From Anaerolineae bacterium (lineage in GTDB: Bacteria; Chloroflexota; Anaerolineae; Aggregatilineales; Phototrophicaceae), in NCBI GenBank assembly GCA_023382675.1, contig JAHDWN010000053.1, positions 1 to 39,783 on the forward strand: a stretch of 39,783 nt of DNA. Reading direction: 5' to 3'. The notes below the pieces were generated by a model. It was not told the origin of the DNA. It searched no databases and saw nothing but the letters and a program-made list of their open reading frames with translations. The stretch's first letter is position 1. Every line of letters begins with the position of its first letter. Below are positions 25,591 to 34,529 of the stretch, in pieces. A program made the position numbers and the translations under genes.

Positions 25591-27285
25591 CTACTCAATA
25601 CTGATAATGTATGGATAGAGCGGTTGCCCGCCCGAAATAACCTCGAATTCCAGATCTGGAAAGCTGTCTGCGAGAATCGCGACCATGGCGCGTGCATCGG
25701 ATTCACCGATGCCTTCGCCATAATAGAGTGTGACGCGCTCAAAACGGCTGGCGTCGGCCATCCGCAGCAGATCACGGGCGACCTGGGTCAGATCATTGCC
25801 CGCGACTTTGAGCACGTCGTCGATCAAACCAATGAACTGCCCGGCGCGGACTTCAAGCCCGTCGATTTCCACGTCGCGGGTGGCGCGGGTGATTTCGCCG
25901 GTGACGACCTGAGATAGCGTCTCGGTCATCATTTCGGTGGTGTCGTCCAGGGTTGCCGGTGGCTCCATGTTTGCCGCGTTGACGTACTCGAACATCGCGG
26001 CAATTCCCTGGGGCACGGTTGCGCTAGGGACGACGCGCACCTGCTTATGCTGCTCTTGCTCCGCTGCCTGGCGGGCTGACAGCAGCACATTCTTGTTGTT
26101 GGGCAGCAGAATGATGTCGTTGTTTGGGATCTTGTCGATGGCGGCCAGAAAATCGCCGGTGCTGGGGTTCATCGTCTGCCCGCCGGTGATGACGTAGGCC
26201 GCGCCAAGTTCCTGGGCAAACAAGCGCTTCATCCCTTTGCCGGTGGCGACGGTGATGACACCCACACCTTCGGTTTCGGTGAGGACATCGCCTTCCCGGT
26301 CCGCGCGCGCCTGCACGTACTGTTCGTACTGGCGGTGCATGTTTTCGACCACGACATCGTCGATGTCTGCACCGCTGGAGATGGCATAATTCAACGGTTC
26401 CGCCGGGTTATGGACGTGGACATGTACCTTGATGAGATTGCTATCGCCGACGACGAGGGTTGACCAGCCCATTGCATTGATGTCCGTGCGCACCTTAGCA
26501 ACGTCCATGTCACGCCCGTGCATCAGAAACTGCACGTCATAGCCGTAGCCTTCCTCGTCTTCCGGCACGAGCGCTTCCTGCCACGTTTCGGCCTGCTGCC
26601 CCAGAATTGGCACCGCCACGTCCACGAGCGAGATGTCTTTGCCACACAGCGCGCGCAGCATCCCTTCGAGAATGAAAACCAGCCCTTGTCCGCCCGAATC
26701 GACTACGCCTGCCTTCTTGAGCAATGGCAGCATGTCCGGGGTGCGCCGGAGTGACGAACGCCCGGCGAAGACCATCGTCTTGAGAATGCTGACGAGGTCA
26801 TGCTGCTTCTCTGTCTTCTGCACGACTGCATCTTTGATGTCGCGCGAGACGGTGAGAATTGTGCCTTCCACCGGCTTTTCGACCGCGCGATAGGCCCAAT
26901 CGACCGCCGAGACACAGGCATCGGCAACCGAGGAAGCGTCGAGTAATTCGTGCCCATCGAGCGCGCGCGCCACGCCGGCCCAGATCTGGGACAGGATAAC
27001 GCCCGAATTGCCGCGTGCGTGGCGCAGCGCGCCATCTGCGAAGGCCTTCGATAATCTGCCGACGTGTGGTTCCTCGATGTCAGCGATCTGGCCAAACGCG
27101 CCGCGCATGGTCAACAGCATGTTCGTGCCCGTGTCGCCATCCGGCACCGGGAAGACGTTGAGTTGGTTGACCTGTTCTTTATTGCGTTCCAGCCATTGAA
27201 CGCCGCCCACTGCGAGGTCTTTAAGCAAATAGCCATCACAGATGAGATTGCCATTTTCACGGAACTGTGCTCGTGTCATAGCCAT
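25591..27285 (-). CDS. fakA: Fatty-acid kinase FakA (YloV/DhaL-DAK2 domain protein)
   Basis: FakA phosphorylates fatty acids bound to FakB, giving acyl-phosphate for phospholipid synthesis. The 564-residue length is typical. The N-terminal DhaL/DAK2 kinase domain (about 8-210) has NVFPVPDGDTGTNM, with Mg-binding D49 and D51, and RHARGNSGVILSQIWAG. The middle domain (about 215-320) and C-terminal DegV-contact domain (about 340-560, with TGGQTMNPSTGD and LLPNNKNV) follow the YloV pattern. ATG 27285 is preceded by GAGGG. The gene lies between rpe (36 bases upstream) and the divergent degV (0 bases downstream), an arrangement related to the yloV-degV-recG order of Firmicutes. Confidence 0.93.
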   Translation of the reverse strand: MAMTRAQFRENGNLICDGYLLKDLAVGGVQWLERNKEQVNQLNVFPVPDGDTGTNMLLTMRGAFGQIADIEEPHVGRLSKAFADGALRHARGNSGVILSQIWAGVARALDGHELLDASSVADACVSAVDWAYRAVEKPVEGTILTVSRDIKDAVVQKTEKQHDLVSILKTMVFAGRSSLRRTPDMLPLLKKAGVVDSGGQGLVFILEGMLRALCGKDISLVDVAVPILGQQAETWQEALVPEDEEGYGYDVQFLMHGRDMDVAKVRTDINAMGWSTLVVGDSNLIKVHVHVHNPAEPLNYAISSGADIDDVVVENMHRQYEQYVQARADREGDVLTETEGVGVITVATGKGMKRLFAQELGAAYVITGGQTMNPSTGDFLAAIDKIPNNDIILLPNNKNVLLSARQAAEQEQHKQVRVVPSATVPQGIAAMFEYVNAANMEPPATLDDTTEMMTETLSQVVTGEITRATRDVEIDGLEVRAGQFIGLIDDVLKVAGNDLTQVARDLLRMADASRFERVTLYYGEGIGESDARAMVAILADSFPDLEFEVISGGQPLYPYIISIE

Positions 27286-27321: not shown

Positions 27322-28023
27322 TCACCTGGCCGCCATCTGCTTTTGGCTCACATCATAATTTTGCAGGGCTGTTCGCAGACGTTCCATGCCCTGATCTGGG
27401 GTGAATTTCGTGCTAAAGAACGCACTTCCAACCACCAGGGTATCCGCGCCTGCTGCCACGACCTGGCCGATGGTCGTTTCATTAACGCCGCCGTCCACCG
27501 CGATACTGATGGCGAGATCCTGGCTATCGATCAATTTGCGCAGTTGGTTGACTTTAGTGAGTGTTTCCGGAATGAGCGTTTGTCCGCCAAAGCCCGGATT
27601 GACGGTCATGACCAGCACAGTGTCAACCAGCGGCAAAATCTCGGTCAGAACAATCGCCGGGGTGTGCGGGTTGATCGCGATACCTGCCTTACAGCCCAAT
27701 TCTTTGATGCGGCTCAGCGTGCGATGAATGTGGAAGCCCGTCTCCCAGTGGATATGGAGCGTCGATGCGCCTGCCTTGACGAAGGCATCGATCATGTTTT
27801 CCGGTTCGATCATCATCAGGTGAACATCAAGCGGTAAATCGGTGCTGCGCCGCGCTGCTTCAACAATCAGTGGCCCCATGGTCAGGTTAGGCACAAAGCG
27901 CCCATCCATGACATCGACATGGATGAGTTCAGCCCCGGCCACCTGTGCATCATGAATTTGCTGCCCCAGCCGGGTGAAGTCGGCGGCGAGGATAGACGGG
28001 GCAATACGAATGTGATCTAACAA
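27322..28023 (-). CDS. rpe: Ribulose-phosphate 3-epimerase
   Basis: Rpe interconverts ribulose-5-phosphate and xylulose-5-phosphate in the pentose phosphate pathway. This 233-residue TIM barrel has IAPSILAADFTRLG at the start, HVDVMDGRFVPNLTMGP (catalytic Asp and metal ligands), DVHLMMIEPE (metal His), MTVNPGFGGQ and AVDGGVN (second catalytic Asp). The start is TTG 28023; no ATG lies near the N-terminus and the conserved IAPSIL begins at residue 7, so little upstream sequence is missing. It is the first gene of the minus cluster leading to fakA. Confidence 0.95.
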   Translation of the reverse strand: MLDHIRIAPSILAADFTRLGQQIHDAQVAGAELIHVDVMDGRFVPNLTMGPLIVEAARRSTDLPLDVHLMMIEPENMIDAFVKAGASTLHIHWETGFHIHRTLSRIKELGCKAGIAINPHTPAIVLTEILPLVDTVLVMTVNPGFGGQTLIPETLTKVNQLRKLIDSQDLAISIAVDGGVNETTIGQVVAAGADTLVVGSAFFSTKFTPDQGMERLRTALQNYDVSQKQMAAR

Positions 28024-28246
28024 AGCCTATGCAACCTCTACAATTCTCTGTCAATCATTCTGGCGGGTAATTGTATTGTTTTCCTTTGCAAAAGGCGAAC
28101 AATTGCCCACCGTCTTCACACATGCTCCTAGATATGAAAACAACCTGTCTTGCAGAAAGTTTCTGGATGCACAATCGATTGCTTCTACAGACTCACTGTT
28201 ATAATGTTGCCCCAAAAAAGGTTCATGAAACCATGAGGCGGCGATT
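28024..28246. promoter_or_regulatory. Divergent control region between rpe and the hydrolase-ligase gene
   Basis: This 223-base non-coding stretch is clearly A+T-richer than its neighbours (hand count 52 G+C of 120 in 28081-28200, about 43%). It must hold promoters for both flanking genes. The plus-strand one is clear (28197-28205). For rpe, minus-strand TACAAT (28070-28075) is a possible -10, and a TTGACA (28049-28054) lies too close to the start codon to be used with a normal spacing. Confidence 0.5.
28197..28205 (+). promoter_or_regulatory. Extended -10 promoter of the hydrolase-ligase gene
   Basis: TGT followed by a perfect TATAAT. Transcription would start near 28212, giving a 35-base leader that contains GAGG (28235-28238) eight bases before ATG 28247. 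No strong -35; TTGCTT lies 15 bases upstream. Confidence 0.65.
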
Positions 28247-30751
28247 ATGGAAGTCGATCTTGAGCTTTATCGAGAAGATATTCTTGTCAGTGAAGACCCT
28301 CCGGTGCGCATCAGTTACATCGAGGTTGCGCCAGAAGCACCCATCGGCACGCTGGTGTTCGTGCATGGTTATGGTGGCTATGCGCTCCAATGGCAAAATC
28401 AGCTCAGGGCGTTCTCGGATGATTATCGGGTGATTGCGCTTGACGTGCGTGGGCATGGCCGTTCGGATGCGCCGCCCAGCCGCTACGATATGAGCGAGCT
28501 ACAGTCTGATCTGGATATGGTGCTGGCGAAGCTCGAAGTCAAGTTCCCGATCATTCTATGCGGTCATTCGTTTGGCGGCGCGCTTGTCACCGAGTTTGCG
28601 CATCGCCGCCCGCAGGATGTCGCGCGGCTGATCCTGGTGGCGACCACGGGCGAGTACTCGCTCTTCAAAGGCGCGGAAACGCTGCTGCGTCTGCCGCTGA
28701 CGATTTTGCGACCAATTCGCCGGATGGTGCGCCGCCAACTGGCTGCCGAGGCACACGTGCTCAAGAATCTCTATTTCAATACCATGCGGGTCTGGAACGG
28801 TTGGAGCAAGTTTCGCGATCTGCAAATGCCAGTGCTCGTCATTCGTGGGGAGCGCGATCAGGTCTACCCGACTGCCGCATTCGAAGAGGTCGCGCAGACG
28901 ATTCCTGACGCCGAGGATGTCAACATCGGCGTATCCAGCCACCTCGTCCCCCTGGAGCGGGCGGATGCCGTCAATCGCGCCATCGAGCGGTTCATCAGCG
29001 ATCCGGAAGCCGAGAAATCCTGGCGCGCCCAGCGTGGCCGGCAGTCGATAGGGGCGAACAGACCATGGATACGCCACTACGAGAAAGGCGTGCCCTCGAC
29101 GCTGGGCCTGCCCAATCGCGCCCTGCATCGGCTGCTGCACAGCGCTGTGCGCCGCGCGGGGCATCGCCCGGCAATCAGCTTCTATGGCCGGACGATGACC
29201 TACCGCCAACTGGACGCCGAAGTCAACCGGTTGGCAAATGCGCTGCGCTCGCTGGGCGTTGACAAAGGCAAGCGTGTCATGCTCCTGCTGCCGAATACGC
29301 CGCAGTTTGTTATTGCCTATTATGCCGTGCTCAAGGCCGGTGGCGTCGTCGTCTCGACCAGCCCTGTCAATGATCGCGAAGAGATTCAGCGGCAGGTGCT
29401 CGATTCCGGGGCGGAAATCCTGGTGACGCTGACGCTGTTCAGCAAGACCGCGCGTGAGGTCAAAGCGCGGGCGGATCTGCGTGCGCTCATCTTCACCAAC
29501 ATCAAAGATTACATGGGGCCTATGGAGCGGACGGTCTTCAGCTTCGGACGTGAGCGACGCGAAGGGCATCTGCTGTCGGAAGGCTTGCAGCCGGGCGAGT
29601 ATAGCTGGCTGGCGCTGATCCAATCGCATCCGGCAATCCGTCCTCAGGTCGAGGTCAGCGCAGATTCGCTGGCCGTCATTCAATACACCGGCGGCACGTT
29701 GGATAAACCCAAAGGCGTCATGCTCAGCCACCGGGCGCTGCTTGCCAACGCGCTCCAGACGCGCCACTGGATCACCGAACTGCGTGAGGGCTATGAAGTT
29801 GTGCTGGGGGTGCTGCCATTTTCGCATTCCTATGGCATGACGGCGGCGATGAACGTGCCCATTGCCCTGGGCGCGAAAATCGTCATTCTGCCGAATTTCA
29901 TCACCCAGGATGTGCTCAAAGCGATTCAGAAGTCCAGGCCGACGCTGTTCCCTGGCGTGCCCACCATGTATATGGCGATCAACCAATTCTCCGGTGTCCG
30001 GCGCTATGGCATTCAGAGCATCAAAGCCTGCATCTCTGGCGCTGCGCCGCTGCCGGTCGAGGTCGCCGAAGCGTTCGAGAAGCTGACGCGCGGGCGCTTG
30101 GTCGAAGGCTATGGGCTGACCGAAGCCTCGCCCGTCACCCATTCAAATCCGCTGCATGGCTTGCGCAAAGTGGGGAGCATCGGCGTGCCTTTGCCGAACA
30201 CTGAGGCGAAAATCGTCGATCTGGCGACGGCGGAAACACTGCCAACCGGGCAGATCGGCGAACTGGCCGTGCGCGGCCCCCAGGTAATGGATGGCTACTG
30301 GGGACAGCCGGACGCCACAGCGCAAACCTTCACCGCCGATGGCTGGCTGCTGACCGGCGACATCGCGCGTATGGATGACGATGGCTATTTCCAGATCATC
30401 AGCCGCAAGAAAGAGATGATCCTCGCGGGCAAATACCAGGTCTATCCACGTGATGTCGAGGAAGTCTTATACGAACATCCCGCCATCAAAGAAGCCGCGG
30501 TCGTCGGGTTAGCGCGCGCAGGCAATGGCGATCAGCGGATCAAGGCCTACATCGTGCCGCGTGAGGGGACTCGTCTGACCAAAGATGAGATTATCGCGCT
30601 GTGCAAACGCCGTTTGAAAGAGTATGCCGTGCCCTGGGAGATCGAATTCCGCGATGAACTGCCGAAGAGCTTCGTCGGCAAAGTGCTGCGGCGTTTGCTG
30701 GTTGAGGATGATGACGAAATGCCCGGAGAAACGATCAGCGGTGGCGAGTAG
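28247..30751 (+). CDS. Alpha/beta hydrolase fused to an acyl-CoA synthetase-like AMP-forming ligase
   Basis: This 834-residue two-enzyme fusion has an N-terminal alpha/beta hydrolase (about 20-255) with the oxyanion HGYGG, nucleophile S108 in GHSFGG, acid D204 (RGERDQVYP) and H232 (SSHLVP). After a basic linker (about 256-290) comes an AMP-dependent acid ligase (about 293-825). It carries the ATP loop YTGGTLDKPKG (480-490), EGYGLTEASP, TGDIARMDDDGYF, the hinge SRKKEMI and the C-terminal lysine in PKSFVGKVLRR. It resembles long-chain acyl-CoA synthetase. I infer that one end frees a carboxylic acid from an ester or thioester and the other activates it. No frameshift divides the parts. The substrate is unknown. 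Confidence 0.92.
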   Translation: MEVDLELYREDILVSEDPPVRISYIEVAPEAPIGTLVFVHGYGGYALQWQNQLRAFSDDYRVIALDVRGHGRSDAPPSRYDMSELQSDLDMVLAKLEVKFPIILCGHSFGGALVTEFAHRRPQDVARLILVATTGEYSLFKGAETLLRLPLTILRPIRRMVRRQLAAEAHVLKNLYFNTMRVWNGWSKFRDLQMPVLVIRGERDQVYPTAAFEEVAQTIPDAEDVNIGVSSHLVPLERADAVNRAIERFISDPEAEKSWRAQRGRQSIGANRPWIRHYEKGVPSTLGLPNRALHRLLHSAVRRAGHRPAISFYGRTMTYRQLDAEVNRLANALRSLGVDKGKRVMLLLPNTPQFVIAYYAVLKAGGVVVSTSPVNDREEIQRQVLDSGAEILVTLTLFSKTAREVKARADLRALIFTNIKDYMGPMERTVFSFGRERREGHLLSEGLQPGEYSWLALIQSHPAIRPQVEVSADSLAVIQYTGGTLDKPKGVMLSHRALLANALQTRHWITELREGYEVVLGVLPFSHSYGMTAAMNVPIALGAKIVILPNFITQDVLKAIQKSRPTLFPGVPTMYMAINQFSGVRRYGIQSIKACISGAAPLPVEVAEAFEKLTRGRLVEGYGLTEASPVTHSNPLHGLRKVGSIGVPLPNTEAKIVDLATAETLPTGQIGELAVRGPQVMDGYWGQPDATAQTFTADGWLLTGDIARMDDDGYFQIISRKKEMILAGKYQVYPRDVEEVLYEHPAIKEAAVVGLARAGNGDQRIKAYIVPREGTRLTKDEIIALCKRRLKEYAVPWEIEFRDELPKSFVGKVLRRLLVEDDDEMPGETISGGE

Positions 30752-31651: not shown

Positions 31652-32677
31652 TTAGCCGAACGTTGCCATCAGCTTTGCCAGAGCCTCTGGCGACGGGCGC
31701 AGTTGCTCGTCGGCCAATGCGCTCAGCGGTGTGTCCACCAGATTGAGCGTTTCGCCGAGGGTTGGGCGCGGCTCTTCGTAGTAGATCAGCCCTGTCAGGA
31801 ACAGCTCCTCACGCTGCGCCTTTTCCAGCACTGACAGCGCGGCGGCACGGTTGCGTGGATCGTGATCCTTATCCACTTGTTTCAGGCGAATGTACGAGCC
31901 GTCGTGCATTTGCACTTCGATCAGCTCGTAATCGCTCTTGACCGTGATTTCTTCGCGTTCCGGCACGAAGCCTCTGGGCATGTAATCGATCTGATGCAGC
32001 GGGATTTCGTTCGCCTTGCCGTATTCATAGCTCTTGGTCGAATCCGGTGCGTTGTTGAAGGTCACGCACGGGCTGATGATGTCGAGCACAGCGGTACCGC
32101 GATGGCTCAGCGCTGCTTTAATCAGCGTCTGAACCTGTTTCGCATCGCCGGAGAAGCTGCGCGCGACGAAGGTGCAGCCGCTGATGATCGCTTCCAGGCA
32201 CAGATCAATCGGCGGCAGTTCGTTCTTGCCATAGTATTTCAGCTTCGCGCCTTCGTCTGCCGTCGCTGAGAACTGTCCCTTGGTCAGGCCGTAGACGCCG
32301 TTGTTTTCGACGATGTAGACCATCGGCACGTTGCGGCGGATCAGATGCTTGAACTGTCCGAAGCCGATGCTGCCGGTGTCGCCATCGCCGCTGACACCAA
32401 TCGCGTAGAGCGACTGATTCGCCAACATCGCGCCGGTCGCTACCGAAGGCATACGACCATGTACGGCATTGAACCCGTGCGAGCCTCGCAGGAAGTAGGC
32501 GGGCGTTTTGCTGGAACAACCGATGCCGCTGAACTTGACGACATGCGGCATGGGCAGGCTGAGGTCATAGGCAGCGCTGATGATCTGGTTCGCAATCGAG
32601 TCATGGCCGCAACCGGGACATAGGGTGCTCTGTGCGGCGCGATAGTCTTGTCTTTCCAGGCCGAGTGCGTTGGGCAT
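31652..32677 (-). CDS. korB: 2-oxoacid:ferredoxin oxidoreductase, beta subunit
   Basis: This is the TPP-binding subunit of a ferredoxin-dependent 2-oxoacid oxidoreductase, 341 residues from the chosen start. The N-terminal CPGCGHDS motif (from C20), KFSGIGCSSKTPAYF, GDGDTGSIGFGQ and VENNGVYGLTKGQ form the TPP/Mg site. Substrate by similarity is probably 2-oxoglutarate (KorB-like), but other 2-oxoacids are possible. ATG 32677 comes one base after the korA stop and has GGGGAG upstream; an alternative ATG at 32695 lacks a ribosome site. No separate 4Fe-4S ferredoxin subunit gene is seen. Confidence 0.92.
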   Translation of the reverse strand: MPNALGLERQDYRAAQSTLCPGCGHDSIANQIISAAYDLSLPMPHVVKFSGIGCSSKTPAYFLRGSHGFNAVHGRMPSVATGAMLANQSLYAIGVSGDGDTGSIGFGQFKHLIRRNVPMVYIVENNGVYGLTKGQFSATADEGAKLKYYGKNELPPIDLCLEAIISGCTFVARSFSGDAKQVQTLIKAALSHRGTAVLDIISPCVTFNNAPDSTKSYEYGKANEIPLHQIDYMPRGFVPEREEITVKSDYELIEVQMHDGSYIRLKQVDKDHDPRNRAAALSVLEKAQREELFLTGLIYYEEPRPTLGETLNLVDTPLSALADEQLRPSPEALAKLMATFG

Positions 32678-32678
32678 G

Positions 32679-34529
32679 TTACTTGTTCTCCCCATGCATG
32701 ACTGATTCGAACACCCATTTCGCCGTCATAGGCAGTGTGTCGCCGAGCGGTAGTGAAATCATGTGCCGCGTGTCTTCCGCCGCTTCCATGCGGATGATCT
32801 GCGCCAGTTGTCCGTCGTGATTATTCTCCAGCACGTACACACGCTTATGCTTGAGGACAAACTCCTTGACCGACTGCGCCAGCGGCAGCGCGCGCACGCG
32901 CAGATAATTCGTCTTGATACCCGCCGCCGCCAAGCGGTCGCGACCCTCTTCGATGGCGGGGTCGTTCGAGCCGAACGAGACCAGGCCGATCTCGTTCTGA
33001 GCGTCGAAATCGATGATAGGCTGCGGCAATAGGACGCGGCTGTTATCGATCTTCTGCGTGATTCGATTCAGATTTTGCAGCCAATCGTCGCCGCGTTCGC
33101 TGTAGACTGCCATGTCATTGTGACCCGTGCCGCGCGTGAAATAGGCCGCGCGCATGTGATCAACGCCGGGAATCGTGCGGTAAGGCACCCCATCCTTATC
33201 ATAATCACGATAGCGATACCATTCGCCGTGCTCGGCTACAAACTGCTCGTATTTTTCCTTATTGGCGAGCAGCTTACCGCGATTCAGCGGCTGATCCGGG
33301 TAGACAAACGGGTCGCTCATCCAGATATTCATGCCCAGATCGAGGTCGCTCATGACGAAGACAGGTGTCTGGAATTGATCGGCCACGTCAAACGCACGCC
33401 AGCCGAATTCGAAACATTCAGCGACGCTGCCCGGCAGCAGGGTGATTTGGCGTGTGTCGCCATGTCCCAGGAAGTGAATGAACAGCAAGTCACCCTGGCT
33501 GGTGCGGGTCGGGAGGCCAGTGCTGGGGCCCATGCGCGTAATATCCCAGATCACACACGGAATCTCCGCGAAGTAGGCCAGGCCGGTGAATTCGGCCATC
33601 AGACTGATACCGGGGCCGCTGGTCGCAGTCATAGCGCGCGCGCCGGCCCAACCTGCACCAATGATCATGCCGATGGCGGCGAGTTCGTCTTCGGCCTGCA
33701 CGACGGCGACGGTATCTTTGCCCGTCTCCGGGTCTTTGCGGAGATGCTTATGATCCAGAACGCCATCGATCACGCTGGTCGATGGGGTGATCGGATACCA
33801 GGCCGCGACCGTGATGCCGCCAAACAGCGCTCCCAGCGCCGTCGCCTCGTTGCCCGTGATCAGGATTTTGCCCGTGGTCAGGTCGAGCGGCTGGAAACGG
33901 AACGGGTCTTGCTTGACCAGGTTTTCCTTCGACCAATCATAGGCATTCTGGACAACGCCGAAGTTCATGTTGGCCGGTTTTTCTTTGCCGTTGAAGGTGT
34001 CCAACAGTGCCTGACGCACAATATCGAGCGGAATGTCGAAAAGATAGGCGCAAGCGCCGACGTAGACCATATTCGCAATGCGATCGCGAAAATCGGACGG
34101 AATATCCGACATTCCGAGCGTCGATTTGACCGGGACTTCGTAGTAGATGATGTCCGGGCGTGTTTGACCCCACTTCCACTCTTGCGGAATGATGCAAACG
34201 CCGCCTTCCGGCAGATTGGCAATGTCTTCGGCGGCGGTATCCTGGTTCATTGTCACCGCGATATCGGTGGTGGCCCGCCGCGCAATGTAGCTGTCTTTAC
34301 TAGCGCGAATGGTGTACCAGGTGGGCAGACCCTTGATGTTGGATGGGAACAGGTTCTTGCCGCTCACCGGAATTCCCATGCGGAACAAAGATCGGATCAG
34401 GACTTCGTTCGAAGTCTGGCTGCCGGAACCATTCTTTGTCGCTATCATGAGGGCAAAATCGTTGATGACCGGCTCGCCCTGGTACGCAGAATGCGTTTTC
34501 GTGTCCGTTTGGATGTTGACTGTGCTCAT
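32679..34529 (-). CDS. korA: 2-oxoacid:ferredoxin oxidoreductase, fused gamma-alpha subunit
   Basis: This 616-residue subunit combines the gamma domain (about 20-200, beginning FALMIATKNGSGSQTSNEVL) with the alpha pyrimidine-binding domain (from about 215, GNEATALGALFGGITVAAWYPITPST, then AEDELAAIGMIIGAGWAG and ATSGPGISLMAEFTGLAYFAE). This gamma-alpha fusion is the usual KorA form. With KorB it oxidatively decarboxylates a 2-oxoacid to acyl-CoA and reduces ferredoxin, or runs the reverse carboxylation. AGGAG eight bases before ATG 34529 supports the start. The leader has a 6+6 inverted repeat, and a GntR gene lies upstream in the same direction. Confidence 0.94.
   Translation of the reverse strand: MSTVNIQTDTKTHSAYQGEPVINDFALMIATKNGSGSQTSNEVLIRSLFRMGIPVSGKNLFPSNIKGLPTWYTIRASKDSYIARRATTDIAVTMNQDTAAEDIANLPEGGVCIIPQEWKWGQTRPDIIYYEVPVKSTLGMSDIPSDFRDRIANMVYVGACAYLFDIPLDIVRQALLDTFNGKEKPANMNFGVVQNAYDWSKENLVKQDPFRFQPLDLTTGKILITGNEATALGALFGGITVAAWYPITPSTSVIDGVLDHKHLRKDPETGKDTVAVVQAEDELAAIGMIIGAGWAGARAMTATSGPGISLMAEFTGLAYFAEIPCVIWDITRMGPSTGLPTRTSQGDLLFIHFLGHGDTRQITLLPGSVAECFEFGWRAFDVADQFQTPVFVMSDLDLGMNIWMSDPFVYPDQPLNRGKLLANKEKYEQFVAEHGEWYRYRDYDKDGVPYRTIPGVDHMRAAYFTRGTGHNDMAVYSERGDDWLQNLNRITQKIDNSRVLLPQPIIDFDAQNEIGLVSFGSNDPAIEEGRDRLAAAGIKTNYLRVRALPLAQSVKEFVLKHKRVYVLENNHDGQLAQIIRMEAAEDTRHMISLPLGDTLPMTAKWVFESVMHGENK

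Follow-up and report, generated by a model that had tools for sequence, protein, structure and literature searches.

A single gene of an Anaerolineae bacterium encodes an alpha/beta-hydrolase followed by a FadD-type adenylate-forming ligase, and we hypothesize, giving this reading slightly better than even chances, that the product is a two-step acyl-salvage enzyme in which an acyl-ester hydrolase is combined with its own acyl-CoA synthetase. The fusion, together with the side-by-side pair of genes found in relatives, is probably a lipid-recycling module. The conserved domain fusion resembles the known OleBC kind, but its hydrolase has a Ser nucleophile and does not belong to the Asp-nucleophile family.

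The genome measures 6.4 Mb, and the gene is found on its contig C53, within the window, that is, the whole stretch of 39,783 nucleotides that was analysed (Table 1). The single-frame fusion claimed in a preliminary description of this DNA was borne out: the forward-strand frame 28247-30751 starts with ATG and encodes 834 amino acids with no internal stop, both parts are recognized by Pfam, and full-length homologues occur in 18 of 61 genomes. An in-frame stop lies 5' of the ATG, with just six codons between the two.

Table 1. Coordinates of the fusion gene, its parts and the genes on its upstream side, numbered from the first nucleotide of the window.
Feature	Position	Strand	Basis
FakA/YloV-like gene, outside the unit	25591..27285	-	TIGR03599, 554.8 bits (cut-off 396.1)
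rpe (ribulose-phosphate 3-epimerase), divergent neighbor, outside the unit	27322..28023	-	Pfam and NCBIfam
GAGG, Shine-Dalgarno-like, ending 8 nt before the ATG	28235..28238	+	read from the sequence
Hydrolase-acyl-CoA synthetase fusion, 834 aa	28247..30751	+	ORF, full-length homologues, AlphaFold model
Alpha/beta-hydrolase domain, residues 32-245	28340..28981	+	Pfam; fold matches, best Z 29.5
Nucleophile Ser108 (GHSFGG)	28568..28570	+	same in 82/82
Catalytic acid Asp204	28856..28858	+	same in 82/82
Catalytic His232	28940..28942	+	same in 82/82
Flexible linker, residues 254-266	29006..29044	+	pLDDT <50; dN/dS of residues 251-294
Adenylate-forming N-domain (AMP-binding), residues 300-685	29144..30301	+	Pfam, 322.6 bits (cut-off 29.9)
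P-loop YTGGTLDKPKG, residues 480-490, Asp486 for the usual Gly/Ser	29684..29716	+	alignment
Ligase C-domain (AMP-binding_C), residues 737-812	30455..30682	+	Pfam, 65.2 bits
C-terminal lysine K812	30680..30682	+	Lys in 80/82

The AlphaFold model of the fusion, built with 72 aligned sequences, reached a mean pLDDT of 87.7 and a pTM of 0.87, and the hydrolase part modelled alone a pLDDT of 91.5. The Ser-Asp-His triad, a feature of serine esterases, is present in 82 of 82 sequences, and the hydrolase fold around it is supported by the model and its fold matches. By Foldseek and fold comparison, the hydrolase model is about equally like serine esterases, lactonases and haloperoxidases (Z up to 29.5), and therefore its substrate is not named by the fold. 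Among the best 25 of 139 NCBIfam matches inspected for the fusion protein, the top models for the ligase half are long-chain fatty acid-CoA ligases (PRK05605 and PRK06710), with 551 and 539 bits and thus under the curated cut-offs of 766 and 1116. The features of the ANL superfamily, namely AMP-binding, AMP-binding_C and the C-terminal lysine, are all present. A reading outside lipid metabolism, in which an esterase and an aryl-CoA ligase would catabolize aromatic or other non-lipid esters, for instance a feruloyl ester to feruloyl-CoA, draws on the solved structures: the best relatives of the ligase are feruloyl-CoA synthetase and 4-coumarate-CoA ligase, and the hydrolase's fold matches include a feruloyl esterase (7dq9). 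Nevertheless, the identity of the ligase to these structures is only about 30%, solved structures lean toward enzymes of this type, and the top curated models are those for long-chain fatty acids; we regard this reading as quite unlikely.

Homologues were searched for with the full chain and with the hydrolase part, along lines that the preliminary description had proposed. In the 18 of 61 related genomes, a count that includes the window's own, the whole chain has a co-linear match far above chance, with identities from 89 down to 44%; the closest copy is that of isolate SJ143 (L056, 89% identical), and the nearest named relatives are assemblies of Anaerolineae (Chloroflexota). When public genome contigs were scanned with the hydrolase part alone, 340 stretches were confirmed and the best 80 were kept as loci, 75 of which carry one frame aligned beyond fusion residue 700 (four of these, L069, L082, L097 and L131, reach the contig end). 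In three more, L088, L111 and L124, the contig ends before residue 700, and in L088 and L111 the frame is by then already in the ligase; in L105 the hydrolase runs on into the ligase with a frame change, and L125, a chromosome labelled Deltaproteobacteria, shows no match to the ligase over the roughly 10 kb that follow its hydrolase. An assembly error as the source of the fusion, which had been considered at the outset, is ruled out by the 18 of 61 genomes and the 75 of 80 loci. Judged by the titles of their records, the 80 loci comprise 74 from Chloroflexota, five from Deltaproteobacteria and one from Bacteroidetes. The Bacteroidetes label (L065) may be a binning error, the sequence lying on a short branch beside a Chloroflexi copy, and the sole Deltaproteobacteria row of the tree (L089) falls within Chloroflexota rows. 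A short basic N-terminal extension before the hydrolase (like MKKKLRGIKR), which could be a membrane-binding peptide, was seen by a loose pattern in 43 of the 80 loci, between L088 and L135, and none was seen in the window's clade. No published account of this fusion in Chloroflexota was found among the papers listed, a listing that covered titles and abstract openings and few of the subscription journals.

The supposition that homologues might always be separate genes proved wrong, yet separate versions do exist in other Chloroflexota. In a phylum sample of 201 genomes, 22 have the hydrolase at E 1e-40 or better, and 15 of these have an open frame of at least 826 amino acids. One of the 15 is the window's own, four (L143-L146) were examined by tblastn, and ten, whose sequences are not in the alignment, are recognized by frame length only. 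In G160 (L138) the reading frame of the hydrolase leads on into the ligase and is cut off by the contig end. In the remaining six (L136, L137 and L139-L142) the ligase adjoins the hydrolase in the same order as a separate gene or frame, and the split in L137 may be a frameshift. In the other five, L136 and L139-L142, one strand carries first another alpha/beta-hydrolase match, next the related hydrolase and, after a further 0.1-0.7 kb, the ligase; gene tables were inspected for L136 and L141, and the arrangement of the others is taken from the matches. Compared with the window fusion, these are two genes in the same order, with 37-42% identity in the hydrolase and 51-52% in the ligase and with a TSGTTG or TGGTTG P-loop in place of YTGGTLDKPKG. 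In a quick unrooted tree, for which SH-aLRT was the only support measure and no mixture model was used, a branch with support 100 sets the five clear separate-gene rows apart from all the others; on such a tree, whose root was not inferred, the joining of neighboring genes is a simpler reading than their splitting. The tree and all residue counts rest on 82 rows, of which 72 come from alignment A3 (the window plus those 71 of the 80 loci whose frame is complete and longer than 780 amino acids) and ten are phylum-search rows. Excluded were the other nine loci, which are incomplete or interrupted and among which L088, L097, L105 and L125 carry a Deltaproteobacteria label, and also L138, whose contig ends early.

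The intact triad described earlier holds at the positions claimed, since Ser108, Asp204 and His232 are invariant in all 82 sequences, window included. The lysine at position 812 is kept in 80 of 82 rows, the exceptions being L137, whose row stops earlier, and L094, which has Val; in the ANL/acyl-CoA synthetase family the C-terminal lysine has a catalytic role. The statement that the ligase has all core motifs holds in part: AMP-binding, AMP-binding_C and K812 are in place, but the P-loop has Leu-Asp where Thr-Gly is usual. The usual P-loop reads Thr-[Ser/Gly]-Gly-Thr-Thr-[Gly/Ser]-x-x-Lys, and in the window Thr481, Gly483, Thr484 and Lys489 are retained while Leu485 and Asp486 (29699-29704) deviate. 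Across the 82 rows, the commonest residue at position 486 is Asp (42), followed by Gly (18) and Ser (13), with other residues in the remaining nine; Thr-Thr-Gly is retained in the five clear separate-gene ligases and in a FadD-like protein that the window's genome encodes as a separate chain. Judged from the Leu-Asp in this motif, ligase activity of the window protein is not certain. In L145 Val replaces the P-loop lysine, and in L094 and L026 the P-loop is damaged and the C-terminal lysine lost, with the hydrolase triad intact.

Against L056, dN/dS was 0.082 in the hydrolase and 0.067 and 0.042 in two parts of the ligase (the last with a high dS, 1.39), as compared with 0.164 in linker residues 251-294, at least twice the values of the domains, and 0.70 in the 12-residue tail; in six further pairs dN/dS was 0.02-0.10 in both halves. 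Given these low values in hydrolase and ligase, both halves are therefore maintained by purifying selection. It is decidedly unlikely, in our judgement, that the hydrolase serves in editing, removing wrongly activated acyl groups, or that each half has a substrate of its own, unrelated to the other's, and the fusion serves co-expression only. Such independence would fit the flexible linker, the survival of the triad while the ligase decays in L094 and L026, and the hydrolase of L125 with no ligase match downstream; it is opposed by the triad and the C-terminal lysine standing together in 80 of 82 rows and by the order that the separate neighboring genes hold.

Several known systems share part of this layout. 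The esterases/lactonases 4uhc and 2xua have a fold in common with the window hydrolase (Z 27.9 and 29.5), which is about 23% identical to them and differs in being fused to a ligase. The same fold is found in 6i8w, which we take to be PlaF, at Foldseek rank 48 and 22% identity. PlaF of Pseudomonas aeruginosa is a cytoplasmic-membrane phospholipase A1 with a proposed role in membrane lipid remodelling; it is membrane-anchored, and the available part of PMC9132575 mentions no ligase fused to it, in contrast to the window hydrolase. Compared with FadD-type ligases (PRK05605/PRK06710), the ligase half aligns along nearly the whole model and has the lysine of the C-domain, but it is fused behind a hydrolase, scores under the curated cut-offs and has Asp in the P-loop, as do 42 of 82 rows. 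In OleBC, the two parts follow each other in the polypeptide in a comparable order. Like the window protein, oleBC gene fusions unite a hydrolase-fold and a ligase-type enzyme in a single chain (PMC7064751), and a beta-lactone synthetase joined to a beta-lactone decarboxylase for olefin synthesis might accordingly be considered. In PMC10503415, OleB is assigned tentatively to subfamily III of the haloalkane dehalogenases, enzymes in which Asp is the nucleophile, whereas the window hydrolase has Ser, as do all 82 rows; an OleBC identity was rejected on this ground. Moreover, fatty acid-CoA ligases are the top NCBIfam matches (best 25 of 139), and no thiolase (as encoded by oleA) or OleD-like gene was found among the neighbors scanned. 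This reading, already disfavored, has hardly any likelihood.

The genomic context was also assessed. The preliminary description had proposed that two acyl-activation routes, the fusion and a fatty-acid kinase cluster, share one control region, a proposal that found no support: the divergent neighbor, 223 bp away, is rpe, behind which come the FakA/YloV-like gene, under the FakA_VfrB cut-off (447.2 of 975), and then two DegV-like genes. Neighbor genes were clustered by blastp with thresholds of 30% identity and 60% coverage, at which copies of greater divergence could escape. On this basis the three genes next to the fusion (rpe, FakA-like and the nearer DegV-like) group with neighbors at only three of 80 other loci (L056, L060 and L074), and the farther DegV-like gene with those of L060 and L074; at least 3.2 kb of upstream sequence is present at 59 of the 80 loci. 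A conserved link between the fusion and the fatty-acid kinase cluster was thus rejected. A consensus scan of the gap between rpe and the fusion found one weak promoter-like site per strand (two found, 0.6 expected). On the other side, genes for a 2-oxoacid:ferredoxin oxidoreductase (31652-34529) converge on the fusion, and the gene for the beta subunit of this enzyme adjoins the fusion in 11 of 80 other loci.

Among the 66 loci in which the fusion is complete and followed by at least 900 bp of sequence, 11 have a patatin-like gene directly downstream of it on the same strand, at -132 to +339 bp with start codons as called (Pfam Patatin was run on L092 alone). These 11 loci are scattered over several branches of one 40-row clade. 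A second alpha/beta-hydrolase gene lies downstream in six loci of another clade (Pfam on L078 only), and an alpha/beta-hydrolase lies upstream in L130 and 1.5 kb downstream on the opposite strand in L133. In the window's clade neither a patatin nor a second hydrolase was found as neighbor (13 loci, at least 2.8 kb downstream). The other recurrent neighbors scanned (LON substrate-binding domain, NrdR, RNase J, carbamoyltransferase, rhodanese, cation ATPase and polysaccharide deacetylase) have, to the extent that Pfam shows, no tie to lipids, except for one SGNH/GDSL-type protein (L122).

We consider it unlikely that the hydrolase is an acyl-ACP thioesterase whose product is re-activated by the ligase, so that chains would move from synthesis to acyl-CoA pools. 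In engineered strains a thioesterase and an acyl-CoA synthetase acting after it do function together, according to PMC8956717, in which PhaG itself is read as a transacylase, and the hydrolase part gives a weak match to Pfam Thioesterase (26.9 bits, cut-off 26.4). Against such a shuttle, the genome has no match to PhaC_N (PF07167, the N-domain of PHA synthase), for which reason a PHA link was dropped; no fatty-acid-synthesis genes are among the ten recurrent neighbors scanned, and the lipase neighbors indicate ester lipids. Elsewhere in the window's own genome, nine matches to acyl-CoA dehydrogenase were found, and a use for acyl-CoA is therefore plausible. The genome also has two patatins, neither on the window's contig, and one WS/DGAT. 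On contig C4 (L150:5197-8357) a patatin gene stands directly before the WS/DGAT gene, with a divergent gene that looks reductase-like by eye; this set is possibly a neutral-lipid cluster. Over 61 genomes, WS/DGAT shows no association with the fusion, both being present in four where 4.1 were expected (18 with the fusion, 14 with WS/DGAT), and a storage-lipid link through WS/DGAT was dropped since the co-occurrence is at chance.

The suggestion of the preliminary description that an acyl group is released and reactivated in a coupled manner remains the best-supported idea for acyl esters, because the adjacent genes keep the same order, the two parts are conserved jointly and acyl-hydrolases recur as neighbors in other clades. 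We infer the ester substrate, CoA as acceptor, the transfer between domains and the physiological role of the fusion as follows. The N-terminal serine hydrolase (Ser108-Asp204-His232) would cut a long-chain acyl ester. Hydrolysis of acyl-CoA as the first step is unlikely, because such a thioesterase would run a futile cycle with the fused ligase; therefore the likeliest ester would be a lysophospholipid or an acylglycerol, left behind by another lipase. The freed fatty acid would then be adenylated by the C-terminal FadD-type domain, and the acyl group could be passed to CoA through domain rotation and Lys812, domain rotation and a C-terminal lysine being the usual means of acyl transfer to CoA in this family. 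The acyl-CoA product might enter beta-oxidation or serve in re-acylation, as in a bacterial 'Lands cycle' module.

To our knowledge, little has been described of how Chloroflexota turn over phospholipids and recycle fatty acids. It is conceivable, if doubtful, that the fatty acid of a membrane or storage lipid is handed over inside the protein, the free acid never leaving it, and that this one-protein front end of a Lands cycle, found chiefly in Chloroflexota, serves bacterial lipid remodelling; if true, such an in-protein transfer would offer a compact route in place of a lipase step and a FadD step by separate enzymes. The conserved fusion and its separate-gene relatives tie one specific uncharacterized hydrolase to acyl-CoA formation and thereby provide a testable enzyme.
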